This document shows, piece by piece, positions 222-6,081 of a stretch of DNA of 6,081 bases. The stretch is from an uncultured Mucispirillum sp. (GTDB lineage Bacteria > Chrysiogenota > Deferribacteres > Deferribacterales > Mucispirillaceae), in contig CAMEOC010000071.1 in the NCBI GenBank assembly GCA_945929285.1, forward strand, positions 1-6,081, read 5' to 3'. The translations under genes were made by a program, and so were the position numbers. Position 1 is the stretch's first letter; every line of letters begins with the position of its first letter. Under the pieces are notes generated by a model. That model saw nothing but the letters and a program-made list of their open reading frames with translations. It was not told where the DNA came from and searched no databases.

Positions 222-250
222 ACTATACCAATTTTATCTTATTTAAGCAA
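222..250 (-). promoter_or_regulatory. Sigma70-type promoter of the superoxide reductase gene
   Basis: Read on the minus strand, a -35 box TTGCTT (245-250) and a -10 box TATAGT (222-227) are separated by exactly 17 bases. Transcription would start near 215, giving a leader of about 22 bases that contains the GGGAGGA ribosome binding site. The boxes match four and five of six consensus positions. It is predicted from sequence only. Confidence 0.6.
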
Positions 251-285: not shown

Positions 286-804
286 TTATTTTATTTTCTC
301 ACATTTTTCCATATCTTTTATAAATACAGAAGATGTATTTGCCCTAAGTTTTTCCTTAAATATATCAAGCCTTTTTATATATTGGTTTTCCATTTCACTT
401 TGAATAAATGATTCCATATATAAATAAGATGAGTTAATAGCCTTATAGGTGCATTCCACATATTTTATATGTCTTTGATATTCTGCATTACTGCTTTTTT
501 GGCTGTATTCTTCTATAATACTAAAAGATTTTTCAAGTTTTTTCTTAATATACCCAATAAACCTGAGCATTCTTTTATAAGATGGTGCTTTAGATATTTC
601 TTCTTCATCTTCCATTATTTCAAGGCTTATAAGGTAAAGTTTATCTTCCAGCTGATATTTATATTTTTCTATATTATTATCCACTTCCTTATTATCTACT
701 TTAGCGGTTTTACTGCTGCTTTCATTTTGTATGCTAAAAGTTTTATTTTTTGCACAGCCCAGTAGCAAAAAGGGGATAGATAATAATATAAAAAATTTTT
801 TCAT
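286..804 (-). CDS. Array protein A: predicted lipoprotein of unknown function
   Basis: I do not recognise the family. The 172-residue product begins with M-K-K and a hydrophobic stretch ending in the lipobox L-L-G-C (Cys17), so it should be lipidated. The +2 residue is Ala, not Asp, which in diderms with an E. coli-like Lol rule predicts the outer membrane. After a Ser/Asn/Lys-rich linker (about 20-45) the protein is charged and apparently all helical, with acidic (E62-E69) and Lys-rich (87-92) patches. Two further cysteines, C118 and C168, are present. It is last in the array; its ATG is one base after the stop of gene B, with a GGA about nine bases upstream, so translation is probably coupled. 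It is the most diverged member: length, position and helical character fit the group, but the shared G-x-I-T-x-x-E turn is not clear here. Confidence 0.85.
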   Translation of the reverse strand: MKKFFILLSIPFLLLGCAKNKTFSIQNESSSKTAKVDNKEVDNNIEKYKYQLEDKLYLISLEIMEDEEEISKAPSYKRMLRFIGYIKKKLEKSFSIIEEYSQKSSNAEYQRHIKYVECTYKAINSSYLYMESFIQSEMENQYIKRLDIFKEKLRANTSSVFIKDMEKCEKIK

Positions 805-805
805 A

Positions 806-1303
806 CTATTTTTCCACTTTTTTTGATATTTCTTTTAAAATCCTGTCTTGTATTTTTGTTAAATCATCAATTTCTTTTCCAGAAGCAGCAACAGCCGTTT
901 CCAGCTCATTGAAAAAAGCTTCATATGTTATTTGGTTTCTGTTTTTAAAAGATATAAGCATATCTTGAGTAAAGGAGTTTATTTTTTCAATATATTCTAT
1001 TTTAGTATGCAGGTATGATTTTCCTAAATCGCTTTTTATTTCCTTATCAAGCTCATGGAGTTTTTTTATAATATTATCTTCAACCTTATTAAGTTCTGCA
1101 AGTGATTTTTCTATATCCACAGTTTTATTATCAATAAGAGCCTGCCTGATATTATATATTTCATTGCCAGATTTTTCTATAAATTCATTATCCAGAGGCG
1201 AAATTTTATGTATGATTAAATAATAATCATTTTCTGATTTAGCAGTATTTTTACTACATGATGCTAAAATAACCAATAAAAGAAGCAGAGCAATTTTTTT
1301 CAT
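806..1303 (-). CDS. Array protein B: predicted lipoprotein of unknown function
   Basis: The 165-residue product has a lipoprotein signal M-K-K-(hydrophobic)-L-A-S-C with the lipidated residue at Cys16; Ser at +2 is compatible with outer-membrane sorting. The mature part is polar, rich in Lys, Glu and Ile, and predicted almost entirely helical with coiled-coil-like spacing (about 55-92). Residues 119-130 carry F-K-N-R-N-Q-I-T-Y-E-A-F, the array's helix-turn-helix signature in a form without Gly. The start is well supported: an AAAGG SD lies eight bases before the ATG, and that SD is itself inside the last codons of gene C, only six bases separating the two reading frames. No enzyme motif is visible and no function is assigned. 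Confidence 0.87.
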   Translation of the reverse strand: MKKIALLLLLVILASCSKNTAKSENDYYLIIHKISPLDNEFIEKSGNEIYNIRQALIDNKTVDIEKSLAELNKVEDNIIKKLHELDKEIKSDLGKSYLHTKIEYIEKINSFTQDMLISFKNRNQITYEAFFNELETAVAASGKEIDDLTKIQDRILKEISKKVEK

Positions 1304-1309
1304 AATTTT

Positions 1310-1813
1310 TTACCTTTCATTTATTTCTTCAATTATATTTTCCAATAATTTTGTTTGTTTTTTTTGTATTTCTCTTATTTTTTTATTATATATAATCTGG
1401 GTAAGTTTTGCATTATTATTAATGTCATGTTCGCCCATACTTTTAAACTGCCTAATGGTTTCCCGCACATATTCAGACTGAATATCTAAAGACTGTACAG
1501 TATATTCATGGTATTTTTTTATTTCTTTTGTGGCAATATATACACTTATTTCTTTAGTAAGCACCATTAGTTTTTTAAGTTCGTTTTCTATTTCCACATT
1601 ATCTTTTTCAAACTGCACTAAATTATTACTTTCTTTAAATCTGGCAATTGAATCAACCATTTTTTCATTTACTAGCTTTATTTTAACATTTAGTTCCTGC
1701 TCAATGGCAGAATACCTATCTATATCTTTTTTTAAAATATTAACATCTGTTTTAGCACATGATATTAATAAAAATACAGAAAGCAGGGCAGTTATTTTAA
1801 TTATTTTCTTCAA
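1310..1813 (-). CDS. Array protein C: predicted lipoprotein of unknown function, TTG start
   Basis: The 167-residue product has a signal ending in the lipobox L-I-S-C (Cys19), with Ala at +2. The mature chain is charged and helical. It is the clearest relative of protein E: T-K-E-I-K-K-Y-H-E-Y-T (95-105) matches T-Q-E-V-R-D-Y-H-N-I-T of E (94-104) at nearly the same position, followed by a helix of similar length, but the Gly turn (M-G-E-H-D, 126-130) has lost the I-T part. The frame starts with TTG, not ATG; no ATG exists in frame between it and the lipobox, and the signal peptide needs this start. The start lies inside the last codons of gene D, a 17-base overlap, with only a weak GGA upstream, so expression probably depends on translational coupling to D. 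Confidence 0.83.
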   Translation of the reverse strand: MKKIIKITALLSVFLLISCAKTDVNILKKDIDRYSAIEQELNVKIKLVNEKMVDSIARFKESNNLVQFEKDNVEIENELKKLMVLTKEISVYIATKEIKKYHEYTVQSLDIQSEYVRETIRQFKSMGEHDINNNAKLTQIIYNKKIREIQKKQTKLLENIIEEINER

Positions 1814-2393
1814 TTAACTTATCCACAGCTGCAAGAAAATTTATACCATTTGTATCTGCAGGAGTTAATGCTCCGTGAGTGTTATGCAGCATTTCATAAT
1901 ATGTATCATAAGAAAGGCTGCCTTCTTTTTTATACACATCTACAAGGTTATATATGGTTTCATTTTGCAGTTTTATATATTTTTTTAAGCTAGTATATGC
2001 TAATTTATACTGGTTACTTTTTGCATTATTAATGGCATTATCTATTAGTATAAAAAGTTTTTCTTCATCACTTTTTATATAGCTTATAAGTTTTTCTAAA
2101 TTATCATTTTTACTATCAAGCAAAGCATCTAAAAGTATATTTGTATTGTCGTTTAAGTTATCAAATATGTTTCTAAATTCCATTAAATATTTTGTTTTAT
2201 ATGTAGCAGTATCTGCTTTTAATTCATCACTGGAATTAAGATATATGGCAACTTCTTCCATGGTGCTATTTGTTTGATTTGTTGCAATATTTTCTATATT
2301 TTCCATACTATTTTCAGCCCTGTATATAATAATAAGGGCTGAAATAATAGCTAATAATAGTATGATTATTGCAATAATATATGTTTTTATCAT
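1797..2393 (-). CDS. Array protein D: predicted membrane-anchored protein of unknown function
   Basis: The 198-residue product has one long, uninterrupted hydrophobic segment at residues 5-24, bounded by Lys3 and Arg25, with no lipobox and no obvious signal-peptidase site. It is therefore best read as a single N-terminal inner-membrane anchor with the remainder probably outside the cytoplasm. The rest is helical and rich in Asn, Lys and Leu. Residues 154-169 contain Y-K-K-E-G-S-L-S-Y-D-T-Y-Y, matching the turn signature of E, F and H. The C-terminal 20-30 residues (H-G-A-L-T-P-A-D-T-N-G) are less charged and have no counterpart in the neighbours. The ATG at 2393 has no good SD; it was chosen because any later Met would delete the anchor. 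It lies 22 bases after gene E and overlaps gene C by 17 bases. Confidence 0.83.
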   Translation of the reverse strand: MIKTYIIAIIILLLAIISALIIIYRAENSMENIENIATNQTNSTMEEVAIYLNSSDELKADTATYKTKYLMEFRNIFDNLNDNTNILLDALLDSKNDNLEKLISYIKSDEEKLFILIDNAINNAKSNQYKLAYTSLKKYIKLQNETIYNLVDVYKKEGSLSYDTYYEMLHNTHGALTPADTNGINFLAAVDKLIEENN

Positions 2394-2415
2394 TATGAAA
2401 AATGTTTGCCTGATA

Positions 2416-2928
2416 TTATTTTTTGTTGTTTTGGTCTGGGTGGATTACAGCTGTTAAAGTTTTAAGGATAGCTGCATTTTTCCTATCCATTTCAGCAAAA
2501 GAGCTTTCATATTTTTTAGTTATTCTAGCTTTTTCATCATCAGTAATTTTGCCGTTTTTAAGATAAGATGATATTGCATCTTTTAAAAACTCATGGCGCA
2601 GTTTTATATATTCCATAGTAATATTATGGTAATCTCTCACTTCCTGGGTTTTTATTTTAAGGGTGTATTTTTGCATGTGGTCTAAAATATATTTTACTTG
2701 GTTATCAATAATTTTCATGCTGGCATTTACATCATGTTTTGCACCTTTTTCTATAACATTATCAATAACCACAGTTTCCTGTTCTATTTTTGCAAGGGCA
2801 TCCACCACTTTTACATTAACATAAGTATTATACATTTCCAAATCTTCCATAACTTCTTTTTTTATGGAAGCAAAAGATATACCAGCAACTGCAAATACTA
2901 AAATTAATAAAGTAAATAATTTTTTCAT
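2416..2928 (-). CDS. Array protein E: predicted secreted/periplasmic helical protein of unknown function
   Basis: The 170-residue product has a classical signal peptide: M-K-K, a hydrophobic core, and S-F-A with predicted cleavage after Ala20. The mature protein of about 150 residues has three or more long helices. It shows the array signatures most fully: K-T-Q-E-V-R-D-Y-H (93-101), shared with C and in part with F; Y-L-K-N-G-K-I-T-D-D-E (122-132); and K-K-Y-E (138-141). A short polar tail ends in D-Q-N-N-K-K. There is no Cys in the mature chain and no catalytic motif. The start is firm: AGGAGA (2934-2939) lies five bases before the ATG. It follows gene F after 16 bases. Because it resembles both C (a lipoprotein) and F (secreted), it is the most useful query for finding the family elsewhere. 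Confidence 0.88.
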   Translation of the reverse strand: MKKLFTLLILVFAVAGISFASIKKEVMEDLEMYNTYVNVKVVDALAKIEQETVVIDNVIEKGAKHDVNASMKIIDNQVKYILDHMQKYTLKIKTQEVRDYHNITMEYIKLRHEFLKDAISSYLKNGKITDDEKARITKKYESSFAEMDRKNAAILKTLTAVIHPDQNNKK

Positions 2929-2944
2929 TTAATTCTCCTATATA

Positions 2945-3436
2945 TTAAAATACAGCAGATAAAAATTCGTTTCTTATATCTGCTGCTTTTTTCTTAATGG
3001 CTTTTTCTTCTTCTTTATATTGTTTTTCTATGTTTTTTATTTCTTTTTTTGTTATACTTCCCTTTGCATTATAAAAAGCAACTATTTCACCGGCAACTTT
3101 TTCATAAAAAGAAAGCTCCATATAAGGGTAGGTAAGGGCATCTTTCATATTTTTTGTTTTAAATACATTAATATGGGCTTTTATATAAGCATCCAGATTA
3201 CATATTTCAGCATGTATATTATTTAGTTTTTCATAAGCTGTGCTTTTTTCATTATATAAAAGTAAAGATTTAATATCATCAATATTTTTAAATACATTTT
3301 TTTGAGCTTGATTAATAACTTTTTCCACATCTTTACTGTATATTTTATAATCATCAAATAAATCATCTTTTAATGCTGCAAAAGAAGCATTTGCAATAAA
3401 AAAGCATATAAGTATATAGGATAATACTCTAACCAT
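2945..3436 (-). CDS. Array protein F: predicted secreted/periplasmic helical protein of unknown function
   Basis: The 163-residue product has a signal peptide (M-V-R, hydrophobic core, A-S-F-A) with predicted cleavage after Ala20, the same position as in E and H. The mature part is Lys- and Glu-rich and helical. F-K-T-K-N-M-K-D (92-99) parallels K-T-Q-E-V-R-D of E and F-K-T-Y-K-M of G. The turn A-K-G-S-I-T-K-K-E (124-132) and K-Q-Y-K-E (138-142) fall at the same residue numbers as in E, so the two chains align without gaps over this part. A highly charged segment follows (E141-K150). One Cys (C79) remains in the mature chain. An AGAAGG SD eight bases before the ATG supports the start. It lies 23 bases after gene G. 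Confidence 0.87.
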   Translation of the reverse strand: MVRVLSYILICFFIANASFAALKDDLFDDYKIYSKDVEKVINQAQKNVFKNIDDIKSLLLYNEKSTAYEKLNNIHAEICNLDAYIKAHINVFKTKNMKDALTYPYMELSFYEKVAGEIVAFYNAKGSITKKEIKNIEKQYKEEEKAIKKKAADIRNEFLSAVF

Positions 3437-3459
3437 AAACTATACCTTCTAAATTTTTC

Positions 3460-4056
3460 CTAAGCTTTTAATTCACCAGCTAAGGCAATTACAAGCATTG
3501 TGGTTTTAATAAACTGCTTTCCTATGGTTTTTTCACTGTCATCATATTTATTAAGCAGCATTCTATATTCTTCTTTACTAAGCTGGTTATAAAGGCAGTC
3601 CATAATTTCTACCCCAAGTTTTTCATCAATCTTTTCATATTTTGTAACAATACCTTTATATTCATTGAAAGTGAGGGCTTCATTTTCTGCAAACCGTTTA
3701 ATTATTTCATAGCCTTTTGCTATTTTAAAACGGCATTGTTTATCCAGCAGGTTTATAAAAACCCTCATTTTATATGTTTTAAAGCCATTAAAGTTTGCTT
3801 TTAGTATGGTTAAGTTATGCTCTAAAGTTTTTAAAGTATTTCTTAACCTAAAAACATCGTTTCTTGTAAGCTGGTATTTTGTAATATCAAGCATGGTAAC
3901 GGCTTTATCCACCTGGTTTACAATATCTTCAAACCTGGATTCAAGGCCCTGGCTTAAAAGGTCTAAATCATCTGCAAAATTTTTAATTTCCCCGGTAACA
4001 TTTTTTGCACTAGTTTCTGCAATAAGTTTTGAAAGGTTAAATTCCTGCTCGTTCAT
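3460..4056 (-). CDS. Array protein G: helical protein without export signal, carrying a duplicated turn motif
   Basis: The 198-residue product starts M-N-E-Q-E-F with a polar N-terminus, so it is predicted cytoplasmic, unlike every other member. It still belongs to the group: F-K-T-Y-K-M (92-97) matches F, and A-L-T-F-N-E-Y (127-133) with T-K-Y-E-K (138-142) matches H. The last motif appears twice: L-T-F-N-E-Y...K-Y (128-140) and L-S-K-E-E-Y...K-Y (159-171), 31 residues apart, which accounts for its extra length. The C-terminus is mildly hydrophobic (M187-G194) but too short to span a membrane. The ATG comes four bases after the stop of gene H and has no recognisable SD, so coupling to H is likely. 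It may act as an intracellular partner of the exported members; that is inference only. Confidence 0.82.
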   Translation of the reverse strand: MNEQEFNLSKLIAETSAKNVTGEIKNFADDLDLLSQGLESRFEDIVNQVDKAVTMLDITKYQLTRNDVFRLRNTLKTLEHNLTILKANFNGFKTYKMRVFINLLDKQCRFKIAKGYEIIKRFAENEALTFNEYKGIVTKYEKIDEKLGVEIMDCLYNQLSKEEYRMLLNKYDDSEKTIGKQFIKTTMLVIALAGELKA

Positions 4057-4060
4057 AAAA

Positions 4061-4510
4061 TCACATATTTTTATAGCGTTCTAAAGATTTTTGAAGTCGT
4101 TTTGCTTCTTTTTCATATTTAGAAACAACTTTATTATACTCTTTTTGGGTTATTGTCCCGTTATTTTCATATATTTCTAAAAGTTCTTTAGCTACATATA
4201 TAGTTAAAAGCTGTATGGAAGCCATATCCTGCACAATGGTGTGAAGGTCTTTATTACTTATAACTTCATCTGCCTTTGTTTTAATATCTGTAATAGTTTT
4301 TTCACTTTCACTTATTTTTTCTTTCATAGAAGGCAGTTGTTTATAAATGTAGAGCCTAGTATTTGGCCACAGGGTATCTGTAATATTTTTCATTTCCCCA
4401 CCGGTTTCTAAAATAGTGCGAATCATTTCTTGAAACTCTACCTTTTCATCAGCAAAGGCAAATAGTGGCACAAATAAAGCTATTACTGCAGTAATAATTA
4501 TTTTTTTCAT
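4061..4510 (-). CDS. Array protein H: predicted secreted/periplasmic helical protein of unknown function, first gene of the array
   Basis: The 149-residue product is the shortest member. It has a signal peptide (M-K-K-I, hydrophobic core, A-F-A) with predicted cleavage after Ala20, leaving about 129 residues. The mature chain is charged and helical, has no Cys, and ends in a coiled-coil-like stretch (about 121-149). Residues 114-135 read I-Y-E-N-N-G-T-I-T-Q-K-E-Y followed by K-Y-E-K-E, the best match to the consensus turn and closely parallel to G (N-E-Y...K-Y-E-K). It is the promoter-proximal gene: a candidate extended -10 promoter lies 35-63 bases upstream, in the 71-base gap after the HNH gene. 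The SD is weak, only a GAG about ten bases before the ATG, but the signal peptide fixes the start. Confidence 0.85.
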   Translation of the reverse strand: MKKIIITAVIALFVPLFAFADEKVEFQEMIRTILETGGEMKNITDTLWPNTRLYIYKQLPSMKEKISESEKTITDIKTKADEVISNKDLHTIVQDMASIQLLTIYVAKELLEIYENNGTITQKEYNKVVSKYEKEAKRLQKSLERYKNM

Positions 4511-4544: not shown

Positions 4545-4573
4545 ATAGTAACAGTATTAAAACTCTTTTACAA
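4545..4573 (-). promoter_or_regulatory. Candidate promoter of the eight-gene array
   Basis: On the minus strand a -35 box TTGTAA (4568-4573) and a -10 box TACTAT (4545-4550) are 17 bases apart, and TG one base before the -10 makes it an extended -10 (TGTTACTAT). Each hexamer matches four of six consensus bases. It lies between the HNH gene stop and gene H, so the array could be transcribed independently of the HNH gene. There is no convincing terminator in the same gap, so read-through from the HNH gene remains possible. Confidence 0.45.
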
Positions 4574-4581
4574 GAAAAAAT

Positions 4582-4881
4582 CTATTGTTTCTTTAAATTT
4601 TCTAAATATTCTATCCATTCTATTGGCAGTTTATGTTTTTTCATGTTATTACATTCTTTACAAGCTGGCACCAGGTTATTTTTAGTGGATTTGCCACCTC
4701 GTATTAGTGGAACAACATGGTCCATGGTAAGCTCTTTTGGTGGAAATGTTTTGCCACAGTAGTAGCATTCCCCTTTAGAAATCTTTTCGTTCCACCAGTT
4801 TGTTTTTCTAAGGCTTCTGGCTTTTTCTCTTTCTTTTGCTATCTCTTTACTATCTGCCTGTGGTATAAAAAAATCGTTCAT
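4582..4881 (-). CDS. Small stand-alone HNH endonuclease-like protein
   Basis: The 99-residue product is a single HNH (beta-beta-alpha-metal) domain. Two zinc-knuckle pairs, C39-x-x-C42 and C74-x-x-C77, frame the core T-M-D-H-V-V-P-L (D54, H55 the presumed metal-binding and general-base pair), R-G-G-K-S-T, N69, and the C-K-E-C-N knuckle followed by H83. All residues expected of an active nuclease are present. A basic, Arg/Lys-rich N-terminal helix (14-26) with the R-K-T-N-W-W segment precedes the domain. Stand-alone proteins of this build are common chromosomal genes in anaerobic bacteria; their role is not established, and nothing here (no integrase, terminase or methylase) points to a phage or restriction setting. 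Start: ATG at 4881 with a weak AAGAG seven bases upstream. It is transcribed toward the array and divergently from pckA. Confidence 0.85.
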   Translation of the reverse strand: MNDFFIPQADSKEIAKEREKARSLRKTNWWNEKISKGECYYCGKTFPPKELTMDHVVPLIRGGKSTKNNLVPACKECNNMKKHKLPIEWIEYLENLKKQ

Positions 4882-5031: not shown

Positions 5032-5898
5032 ATGAGCACATACAATGCTTCTACAGACTATTTAAAGTCATACGGTATTAACAATCCAAAGGCAATTTAC
5101 TTAAATATGCCAACAGAGGCTCTTTATGAAGAAGCTATTAAACGCGGTGAAGGTCATATAGTTAAAGGCGGTGCAATGGTATTTGAAACAGGTGCACACA
5201 CTGGCCGTTCCGCTCAAGATAAATATGTGGTTAGAGAATCATCTTCTGAAAAAGATGTAAACTGGAATTCATCAGCTGCTAAAGAAGCAAGCGAAGCTCA
5301 ATTTGAAACACTTTATAAAGATATGATGGCTCATTGCGATGGCAAAGAATTATTTGTTCAAGAATTATATGCTGGTGCAGATGAGTCTTGCCGTTTAAAA
5401 GTTCGTGTTATTGGCGAATTTGCATGGCACAATATGTTTGCACGCAATATGTTTATCTGCGAAACAGATTTAGCAAAATTAAAAGGCTTCCAAGCTGATT
5501 TTACAGTTATCTACCTCCCAAATTTCCAAGCTGATACAGCAAAACACGGCACTCGTTCAAGCACAGTTATTATGCTTAACTTTGCTAAAAAAGTTGTGTT
5601 AATAGGCGGCACTCAGTATGCTGGTGAGCTTAAAAAATCTGTATTTACAGTAATGAACGACTATCTCCCAAAACAAGGCATTATGAGTATGCACTGCTCT
5701 GCTAATATTGGCGAAAAAGGTGATACTGCTATTTTCTTTGGTTTATCAGGCACTGGTAAAACTACCCTTTCTTCAGACCCAAAAAGAGTGTTAATTGGTG
5801 ATGATGAACACGGCTGGAGTGATAAAGGTGTATTTAATGTAGAAGGCGGCTGCTATGCGAAAGTTATCAAACTTTCTAATAATTCGAAACGTTTATAA
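5032..5898 (+). CDS. pckA: Phosphoenolpyruvate carboxykinase (ATP), truncated at its C-terminal side
   Basis: ATP-dependent PEP carboxykinase interconverts oxaloacetate plus ATP with PEP, CO2 and ADP in the cytoplasm; it serves gluconeogenesis or, in some anaerobes, CO2 fixation toward succinate. The 288 residues contain T-G-R-S (57-60; substrate-binding Arg59), I-G-G-T-Q-Y-A-G-E-L-K-K (191-202; Tyr196 and metal-ligand Lys202), M-H-C-S-A-N (His221), the P-loop G-L-S-G-T-G-K-T-T (237-245), and L-I-G-D-D-E-H-G-W (254-262; metal-ligand Asp257). Family members are about 520-540 residues. Here similarity ends at about residue 282 (K-V-I-K-L-S), and N-N-S-K-R-L and a TAA follow. The second active-site Arg and the C-terminal adenine-binding region are absent, so the product as written should be inactive. 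No continuation of pckA is found downstream in any frame, so this is a break, not a frameshift. Confidence 0.93.
   Translation: MSTYNASTDYLKSYGINNPKAIYLNMPTEALYEEAIKRGEGHIVKGGAMVFETGAHTGRSAQDKYVVRESSSEKDVNWNSSAAKEASEAQFETLYKDMMAHCDGKELFVQELYAGADESCRLKVRVIGEFAWHNMFARNMFICETDLAKLKGFQADFTVIYLPNFQADTAKHGTRSSTVIMLNFAKKVVLIGGTQYAGELKKSVFTVMNDYLPKQGIMSMHCSANIGEKGDTAIFFGLSGTGKTTLSSDPKRVLIGDDEHGWSDKGVFNVEGGCYAKVIKLSNNSKRL
5872..5885. other. Breakpoint between pckA and unrelated sequence
   Basis: Within these bases the reading frame stops matching PEP carboxykinase and the sequence becomes the upstream region of a YbjQ-family gene. No insertion-sequence end, target duplication, attachment site or tRNA is visible at the junction. 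The gene start that follows lacks an SD, unlike pckA and the superoxide reductase gene. An assembly chimera near a contig end is at least as likely as a real deletion or recombination. Confidence 0.6.
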
Positions 5899-5917
5899 TC
5901 GAAAAATTGAAATATTT

Positions 5918-6081
5918 ATGATTATTACTACAACCCCGACCATAGAAGGTCATTGTATCAAAGAGTATAAAGGTATCGTGTCAGGAGAGGTAATCTTCGG
6001 CATGAATTTCATGAAGGATTTCTTTGCTTCCATTCATGATGTGTTTGGCGGCCGCAGCAACAGTTATGAAAAATCCATGCT
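5918..6081 (+). CDS. YbjQ/UPF0145 family protein, partial (N-terminal 54 codons)
   Basis: The visible residues show the family pattern: T-T-T-P-T-I-E-G (4-11), K-G-I-V-S-G-E-V-I-F-G (18-28), and D-F-F-A-S-I-H-D-V-F-G-G-R-S with S-Y-E-K after it (34-52). Full-length members are about 100-110 residues of heavy-metal-binding-domain-like fold with no established function, usually cytoplasmic. The C-terminal half is outside the window. The A-rich stretch before the ATG has no SD sequence, which is typical of Bacteroidota and unlike the strong SDs elsewhere in this window. Hand-counted G+C here is about 40 percent, visibly higher than the array. This fits a different source organism from the rest of the window, but does not prove it. 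Confidence 0.85.
   Translation, partial: MIITTTPTIEGHCIKEYKGIVSGEVIFGMNFMKDFFASIHDVFGGRSNSYEKSM

Follow-up and report, generated by a model that had tools for sequence, protein, structure and literature searches.

Spy and CpxP are small exported helical proteins, and the PFam54 proteins of Borrelia are lipoproteins with a helical fold. In one published account of PFam54, the family comprises 39 paralogs that fall into 23 orthologous groups across three species; it is located mainly on plasmid lp54, includes complement-binding outer surface proteins, and its array is nonetheless called fairly stable historically (PMC11109050). Here, we describe an array of eight genes, A to H, in Mucispirillum. 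The window analysed is the entire 6,081-base contig C71 from a draft genome that is 57% complete, and the array was examined in 10 Mucispirillum genomes, namely the window's own and nine others of the same genus. Seven of the eight genes, B to H, are shown by computation to form one paralogous family, to which E, F, B and D belong strongly and C, G and H more weakly.

The eight genes are consecutive minus-strand open reading frames (ORFs) of 149-198 codons that span positions 286-4510 and are transcribed in the order H, G, F, E, D, C, B, A. Their intergenic gaps in the window measure 1-23 bases, apart from one overlap of 17 bases, and the ORF coordinates, thus, bear out the layout reported in an earlier first-pass annotation of this DNA. 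The overlap is that of gene C with gene D, and a D-C overlap of 17-35 bases is present in all 10 genomes. Recurrence of the array with the same order in related genomes, which the annotation had proposed to look for, was found across the 10 genomes, save for a small number of copies that were added, replaced or lost.

Sequence identity between E and the other array members is 12-22%. A phmmer search with protein E as the query retrieved C (E-value 5.6e-4) and F (E-value 1.7e-3) in its own genome. In a pairwise test, family profiles with signal peptides removed were compared for 28 pairs and set against 64 comparisons with reversed profiles, which preserve composition and helix periodicity. Seven pairs (EF, CE, BE, DF, DE, FH and FG) exceeded all 64 reversed comparisons: EF scored 54.3 against at most 32.3, and FG passed narrowly (32.6 vs 32.3). 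Gene E is the member with the most links. The other 21 out of 28 pairs of these profiles did not rise above all the reversed comparisons. An earlier similarity signal between A and C disappeared once signal peptides were cut.

In a leave-one-family-out test, each family, represented by its first nine sequences, was aligned by hhalign with a merged B-F profile from which that family had been removed. The profile scores were 47.3 for B, 31.6 for C, 51.6 for D, 82.2 for E, 54.1 for F, 36.6 for G and 33.0 for H, with hhalign probabilities from 50% (C) up to 98% (E). Reversed profiles scored 11.2-22.1, and 40 control proteins scored at most 18.0; these controls, drawn from 83 available, were unrelated single sequences of unmatched composition. 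When single window sequences were used for a like-for-like comparison, the scores were 49.9 (B), 23.4 (C), 28.7 (D), 51.6 (E), 31.1 (F), 20.2 (G) and 31.1 (H), each exceeding all 40 controls, with G the lowest (20.2 vs a control maximum of 17.4). Gene A reached 14.5 as a profile and 12.4 as a single sequence, values that the controls also cover (95th percentile 14.9, maximum 17.4). The proposal that all eight genes are paralogs, therefore, stands for B-H, which score above both the reversed profiles and the 40 controls, and is not confirmed for A. It is very improbable that the array consists of eight unrelated helical proteins that resemble one another through Lys/Glu-rich helices. The low identity to E, the 21 pairs that fail against reversed comparisons and the behaviour of gene A would all fit such an origin, but reversed profiles stay at 11.2-22.1 where B-H reach 31.6-82.2, and phmmer from E alone reaches C and F. 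The evidence speaks against this origin for B-H; gene A may have it.

Two of the eight proteins were modelled with AlphaFold2. The E model, built from 23 aligned sequences, has a predicted local distance difference test (pLDDT) score of 82 and a predicted template modelling (pTM) score of 0.79, with helices at 24-61, 67-87, 95-125 and 130-162. The G model, built from 21 sequences (pLDDT 80, pTM 0.74), has helices at 22-54, 65-91, 95-125 and 130-155, in addition to a short one at its start and two (161-170 and 178-196) in its C-terminal extension. Helices fall at the same residues in both models, at 95-125 and from 130 onwards, as judged from boundaries rather than superposition, so a shared topology, which the annotation had put to the test of structure prediction, is predicted for the two members modelled. 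The family domain is, thus, predicted to be a small four-helix bundle, on the basis of E and G. Fold searches matched no solved or viral structure at an E-value of 0.001 or better; the weak matches include the chemoreceptor ligand-binding domains of PcaY_PP, Tsr and Tar.

Most of the shared motifs claimed in the annotation were located. Proteins E, F and G carry KT at residue 93 and [IL]TxxE at residue 128; Gx[ILV][TSD] occurs at 126 in E and F, at 158 in D and at 118 in H; KYE is found at 139 in E, 139 in G and 131 in H, with KQY at 138 in F; and the gene C protein carries ATKEI. The claimed equivalent in B is absent, as no G-x-[ILV]-T/S match was found in that protein, and in protein G the glycine at 126 is missing. 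In the models, KT at 93 sits just before helix 3 and [IL]TxxE at 128 lies at the start of helix 4. The shared motifs, thus, lie at the turns that precede helix 3 and separate helix 3 from helix 4, and they look like turn and helix-cap motifs, which would account for their being kept although there is no active site.

The members of the array differ in their predicted address signals, which were judged from hydrophobicity and the lipobox pattern. Genes A (286..804, 172 aa), B (806..1303, 165 aa) and C (1310..1813, 167 aa, TTG start) encode predicted lipoproteins: a lipobox is present in 26 out of 26 proteins (A 9/9, B 7/7, C 10/10). In Escherichia coli, lipoproteins with Asp at position +2 stay in the inner membrane; in the 26 array proteins, the lipidated Cys is followed at +2 by A, S or N and never by D. 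Gene A, the last of the array, has the lipobox LLGC with Cys 17 and two further cysteines, Cys 118 and Cys 168, and these two, 50 residues apart, are kept in nine out of nine genomes. Protein D (1797..2393, 198 aa) combines a predicted N-terminal membrane anchor with a helical domain, and its hydrophobic N-terminal stretch lacks a lipobox in 10/10 genomes. A hydrophobic leader is present in E (2416..2928, 170 aa; 10/10), F (2945..3436, 163 aa; 9/9) and H (4061..4510, 149 aa, the first gene of the array; 9/9), all three predicted to be secreted into the periplasm. Gene G (3460..4056, 198 aa) encodes a protein without a hydrophobic N-terminus in 10/10 genomes, and its open frame permits at most about eight further upstream residues. 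The predicted compartments are, thus, the cytosol for G, the inner membrane for D and the periplasm for E, F and H, with A, B and C as lipoproteins. The annotation had described all members as envelope proteins, which fails for G, the leaderless and most conserved one. Mature net charge ranges from −8 to −16 in D and from +1 to +8 in C (10 proteins each), and from −3 to −14 in the 12 proteins that comprise B and the additional copies B2 and B3 described below.

A tree of 72 rows, from which gene A and database proteins were excluded, placed C, D, E, F, G and H in one clade each, whereas B was split, with B2 next to C. Links between families were weak and carried a long-branch warning. As six ortholog groups each form a single clade, those duplications predate the sampled species. 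Extra or replacement copies (B2, B3 and E2, assigned by hand) are restricted to some lineages: an additional E-like copy, E2, is present in G007 and G014 (L023:7145-7654 and L030:8478-8984), and the B slot holds B2 and/or B3 in G008, G010 and G011 (L024, L026 and L027). The content of the array, therefore, went on changing among species. Gene F is intact in 9 out of 10 genomes; G011 alone lacks an intact copy and has at the F position a 292-base gap (L027:7465-7756) with F-like words broken by stops, a decayed F remnant. The absence of A from G013 and of H from G014 is due to contigs that end at these points.

Gene G is the most conserved member, with 85-90% identity to the window copy across the genus. 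Whole-gene ratios of nonsynonymous to synonymous substitution (dN/dS), estimated by the NG86 method, were below 0.5 in every computed comparison of A-H, the highest being 0.45 (F). Over six genome pairs, the dN of G was 0.004-0.053 and that of most exported copies was higher. Between G009 and G012, dN was 0.048-0.116 for the seven other members, compared with 0.021 for G, 0.033 for the neighbouring HNH gene, 0.008 for pckA and 0.044 for the superoxide reductase gene. Most exported members, thus, evolve faster than G, HNH or pckA. Both halves of the suggestion that the array is old or fast-evolving hold: the duplications predate the sampled species, and most exported members change fast.

Gene E was found in all 10 Mucispirillum genomes and in none of the five others of the same taxonomic family; G was found in the same 10 genomes and in none of 40 other Deferribacterota, sister genera included. 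In the single-contig genome G007 (2.35 Mb), a profile built from B-F and H (A6) matched seven places, all inside the array, and missed G and A. The same profile gave weak matches (E-values 0.0007-0.01) in 11 out of 40 other Deferribacterota genomes. These were set aside as chance, since the frames in 10 out of 11 fetched loci look like unrelated proteins, which we take, by eye, to be HolA, MazG, CheW-like, RqcH-like and a kinase. Two matches in Mucispirillum genomes that lie away from the array, G010:C26 (E-value 6.9e-5) and G011:C11 (E-value 0.0025), were also set aside, as they fall in stop-rich, AT-rich stretches beside other genes. Metagenome proteins with 48-71% identity to G exist; the restriction to the genus, therefore, holds just for the genomes searched.

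No convincing family or fold match emerged from the libraries searched, in agreement with the annotation's statement that the family was unrecognised. Proteins A-H had no Pfam match above the cut-off among all matches up to an E-value of 1. The best NCBIfam match was an ATP synthase delta model against G (E-value 2.3e-4, 20.8 bits, cut-off 95), the best PHROGs match was gene A against a family of unknown function (E-value 3.2e-4), and PADLOC returned nothing for A-H at an E-value of 0.01. Among the 25 out of 47 weak Pfam families listed, Prominin was the commonest (5 out of 27 members, best E-value 3.7e-5), and it is also the precomputed label of the homolog P0011. That identity was rejected, as P0011 and five relatives score at most 26.5 bits against a cut-off of 34.3, and the match was taken as helix similarity. 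A baculovirus envelope model, matched weakly by 18 out of 21 G proteins (best E-value 4.7e-4), was treated in the same way. As to a phage origin, a tblastn search of 50,697 phage records with E gave no match, and G had none in viral contigs. Nothing about the array turned up in the literature searches made.

A promoter-like site lies upstream of H at 4545..4573 on the minus strand (TTGTAA, 17 bases, TACTAT; 8 out of 12 consensus matches). The pattern TTGTAA-N17-TAnnAT is found in all nine genomes that cover the region, 58-63 bases before the H start, the inner start (MKK/MKQ) being used in G006, G007, G009, G012 and G013. The nine relative loci, 238,416 strand-bases in all, contain it 12 times, and eight of these occurrences are the H sites. 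Another promoter-like site, at 222..250 on the minus strand (TTGCTT, 17 bases, TATAGT), precedes the superoxide reductase gene and is conserved in nine out of nine genomes covering the region. Both patterns were read off alignments post hoc and fit the sigma-70 consensus poorly; a general promoter scan lists neither, its total being 34 compared with 35.2 in shuffled sequence. The argument for these promoters is, thus, one from conservation only. In the simplest reading, the array would be a single transcription unit that runs from H to A and starts at the site before H. The separate superoxide reductase site suggests that the unit ends at gene A, and the idea of that gene as part of the operon was lowered accordingly.

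In the window, the array is flanked upstream by an HNH gene and downstream by the start of the superoxide reductase (desulfoferrodoxin) gene, which the array adjoins in nine out of nine genomes covering that end. The small HNH protein gene (4582-4881) matched HNH models, is present in 44 out of 45 genomes of the order and is, in its own right, conserved and uncharacterised. Of 14 loci fetched from other genera, two are superoxide reductase loci and 12 hold HNH, in all cases between alaS-like and pckA-like genes identified by eye. In Mucispirillum, the array follows HNH, and the alaS-like gene, where seen, lies beyond pckA. Most simply read, the array either originated within the Mucispirillum lineage or was inserted there. 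In G007, both outer flanks of the block from HNH through the array to the reductase are unlike those of other species, and transposase-like genes (by eye) lie just past the superoxide reductase gene (L023:11163-12553). At the far end of the window, the sequence follows the pckA region of G010 up to 5879, and the remaining 5880-6081 has no match in the nine congeners; this stretch, which we take by eye to be part of a YbjQ-like protein, is probably a false join at the draft contig end or foreign DNA.

Our tentative explanation, which we hold as possible and short of probable, is that the B-H set forms a heteromeric helical-adaptor scaffold or tether across the Mucispirillum envelope, orphan and genus-specific. 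It draws on the lack of any catalytic-looking motif, the spread of addresses over the envelope, the kept order and the pair of oppositely charged members from overlapping genes. The copies may bind one another, as the acidic D beside the basic C would suggest, and the array would tether or organise the envelope rather than catalyse. The copies in the periplasm would link D, anchored in the inner membrane, to the lipoproteins, and G would work on the cytosolic side, perhaps as a fixed part untouched by the faster-changing exported copies. The points that we count in support are the homology of B-H, the shared helix boundaries of E and G with the motifs at the turns, the kept address signals together with the +2 residue of the lipoproteins, the conserved order with spacing that is mostly short or overlapping, the H site, the D/C charge and the dN/dS values below 0.5.

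Several observations weigh on the other side of the scaffold explanation. If G stays in the cytosol, it would be unable to touch the periplasmic copies. Gene A, with scores inside the control range, is no more than a putative member, and profile A6 misses G at an E-value of 0.01 in every genome, so the membership of G rests on the pairwise test, the leave-one-out test and the structure model. The E and G models come from 23 and 21 sequences, and the address signals from hydrophobicity and a lipobox pattern rather than a trained predictor. The decay of F in G011 and the refilling of the B slot are odd for a tightly fixed complex. The H promoter-like site is weak by consensus, and some array gaps are long (up to 292 bases).

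The other explanations of function each draw on part of the same evidence. The array could be host-facing, a set of lipoproteins and secreted proteins like Borrelia PFam54 whose copies would bind different host or mucus molecules, with turnover tracking host range. Diverged tandem copies, lipoprotein members, the turnover of E2 and of B2/B3, and a rate of change that is higher in most exported copies than in G, HNH and pckA would all fit, as would the reported life of M. schaedleri in the intestinal mucus layer (PMC5285517); a Borrelia surface protein (8s2f) also appears in the fold list, though at an E-value of 2.0. We nevertheless consider it unlikely. No computed dN/dS ratio reaches 0.5, although whole-gene ratios permit a few changing sites; the leaderless G is the most conserved member; and the content changes in ten genomes are few compared with the 39 paralogs in 23 orthologous groups from three species described for PFam54 (PMC11109050). 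No Borrelia family is among the 25 out of 47 weak families listed for 27 members, and A-H have no match above the cut-off to any Pfam model, the one that covers PFam54 included.

A role as envelope stress chaperones like Spy/CpxP, in which copies specialised by site would hold unfolded periplasmic proteins, appears distinctly unlikely. The array proteins are small, mostly exported and charged, helical in the two models and free of catalytic-looking motifs, and the adjoining superoxide reductase gene would suit such a role. That gene, however, has its own promoter-like site, and LTxxQ is absent from 72 out of 74 proteins, with none carrying two copies; nor is there a Pfam match above the cut-off for A-H. 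We regard as improbable a set of ligand-binding modules like chemoreceptor four-helix sensor domains freed from their signalling parts. It is suggested by the recurrence of PcaY_PP, Tsr and Tar domains among the weak fold matches and by one B protein that matches the 7TMR-HDED extracellular sensor model at 21.5 bits, short of the 27.6 that this model requires. No four-helix sensor model is among the Pfam matches up to an E-value of 1 for A-H, and two membrane spans with a HAMP or signalling domain were not found in ORFs of 149-198 aa, of which D alone has an N-terminal anchor.

Extending the scaffold explanation to its origin, the genus may have built its own envelope machine from one orphan four-helix domain by serial duplication, each copy being re-addressed, so that a single fold would line all layers between the cytosol and the outer membrane; this step is a doubtful one. 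The serial duplication of an undescribed helical domain into an operon-like array, as the annotation put it, applies to seven of the eight genes and leaves out A. As copies of one orphan domain bear four classes of address signal, the array would be well suited to studying how an envelope system of many parts can grow from one gene. With the set kept genus-wide and G absent from the 40 other genomes of the phylum, it also supplies candidate markers for Mucispirillum, a gut bacterium that lives in mucus.

Among known systems, LntA of Listeria differs from the array proteins, with 11-14% identity, no sequence match and a Z score within the range that the tool calls meaningless for helical bundles. 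Spy and CpxP are likewise small, exported and helical, but LTxxQ is missing from nearly all array proteins, which also have no Pfam match above the cut-off. The chemoreceptor domains of Tar, Tsr and PcaY_PP resemble E, a predicted four-helix bundle of about 140 residues, by weak fold matches; they differ in that no fold or sequence match is significant, no HAMP or signalling part is present, and most array copies are not membrane-spanning. Borrelia PFam54 (CspA and relatives), as described in PMC11109050, is alike in being a diverged paralog array with copy gain and loss within one bacterial genus, whereas the Mucispirillum array is found in G007 on that genome's one contig of 2.35 Mb, includes a leaderless conserved member and has no Pfam match above the cut-off. 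No library that we used describes this family, and a lineage-specific paralog array is, as a kind, already known; the unusual part is that one domain is spread over four address classes within one array.

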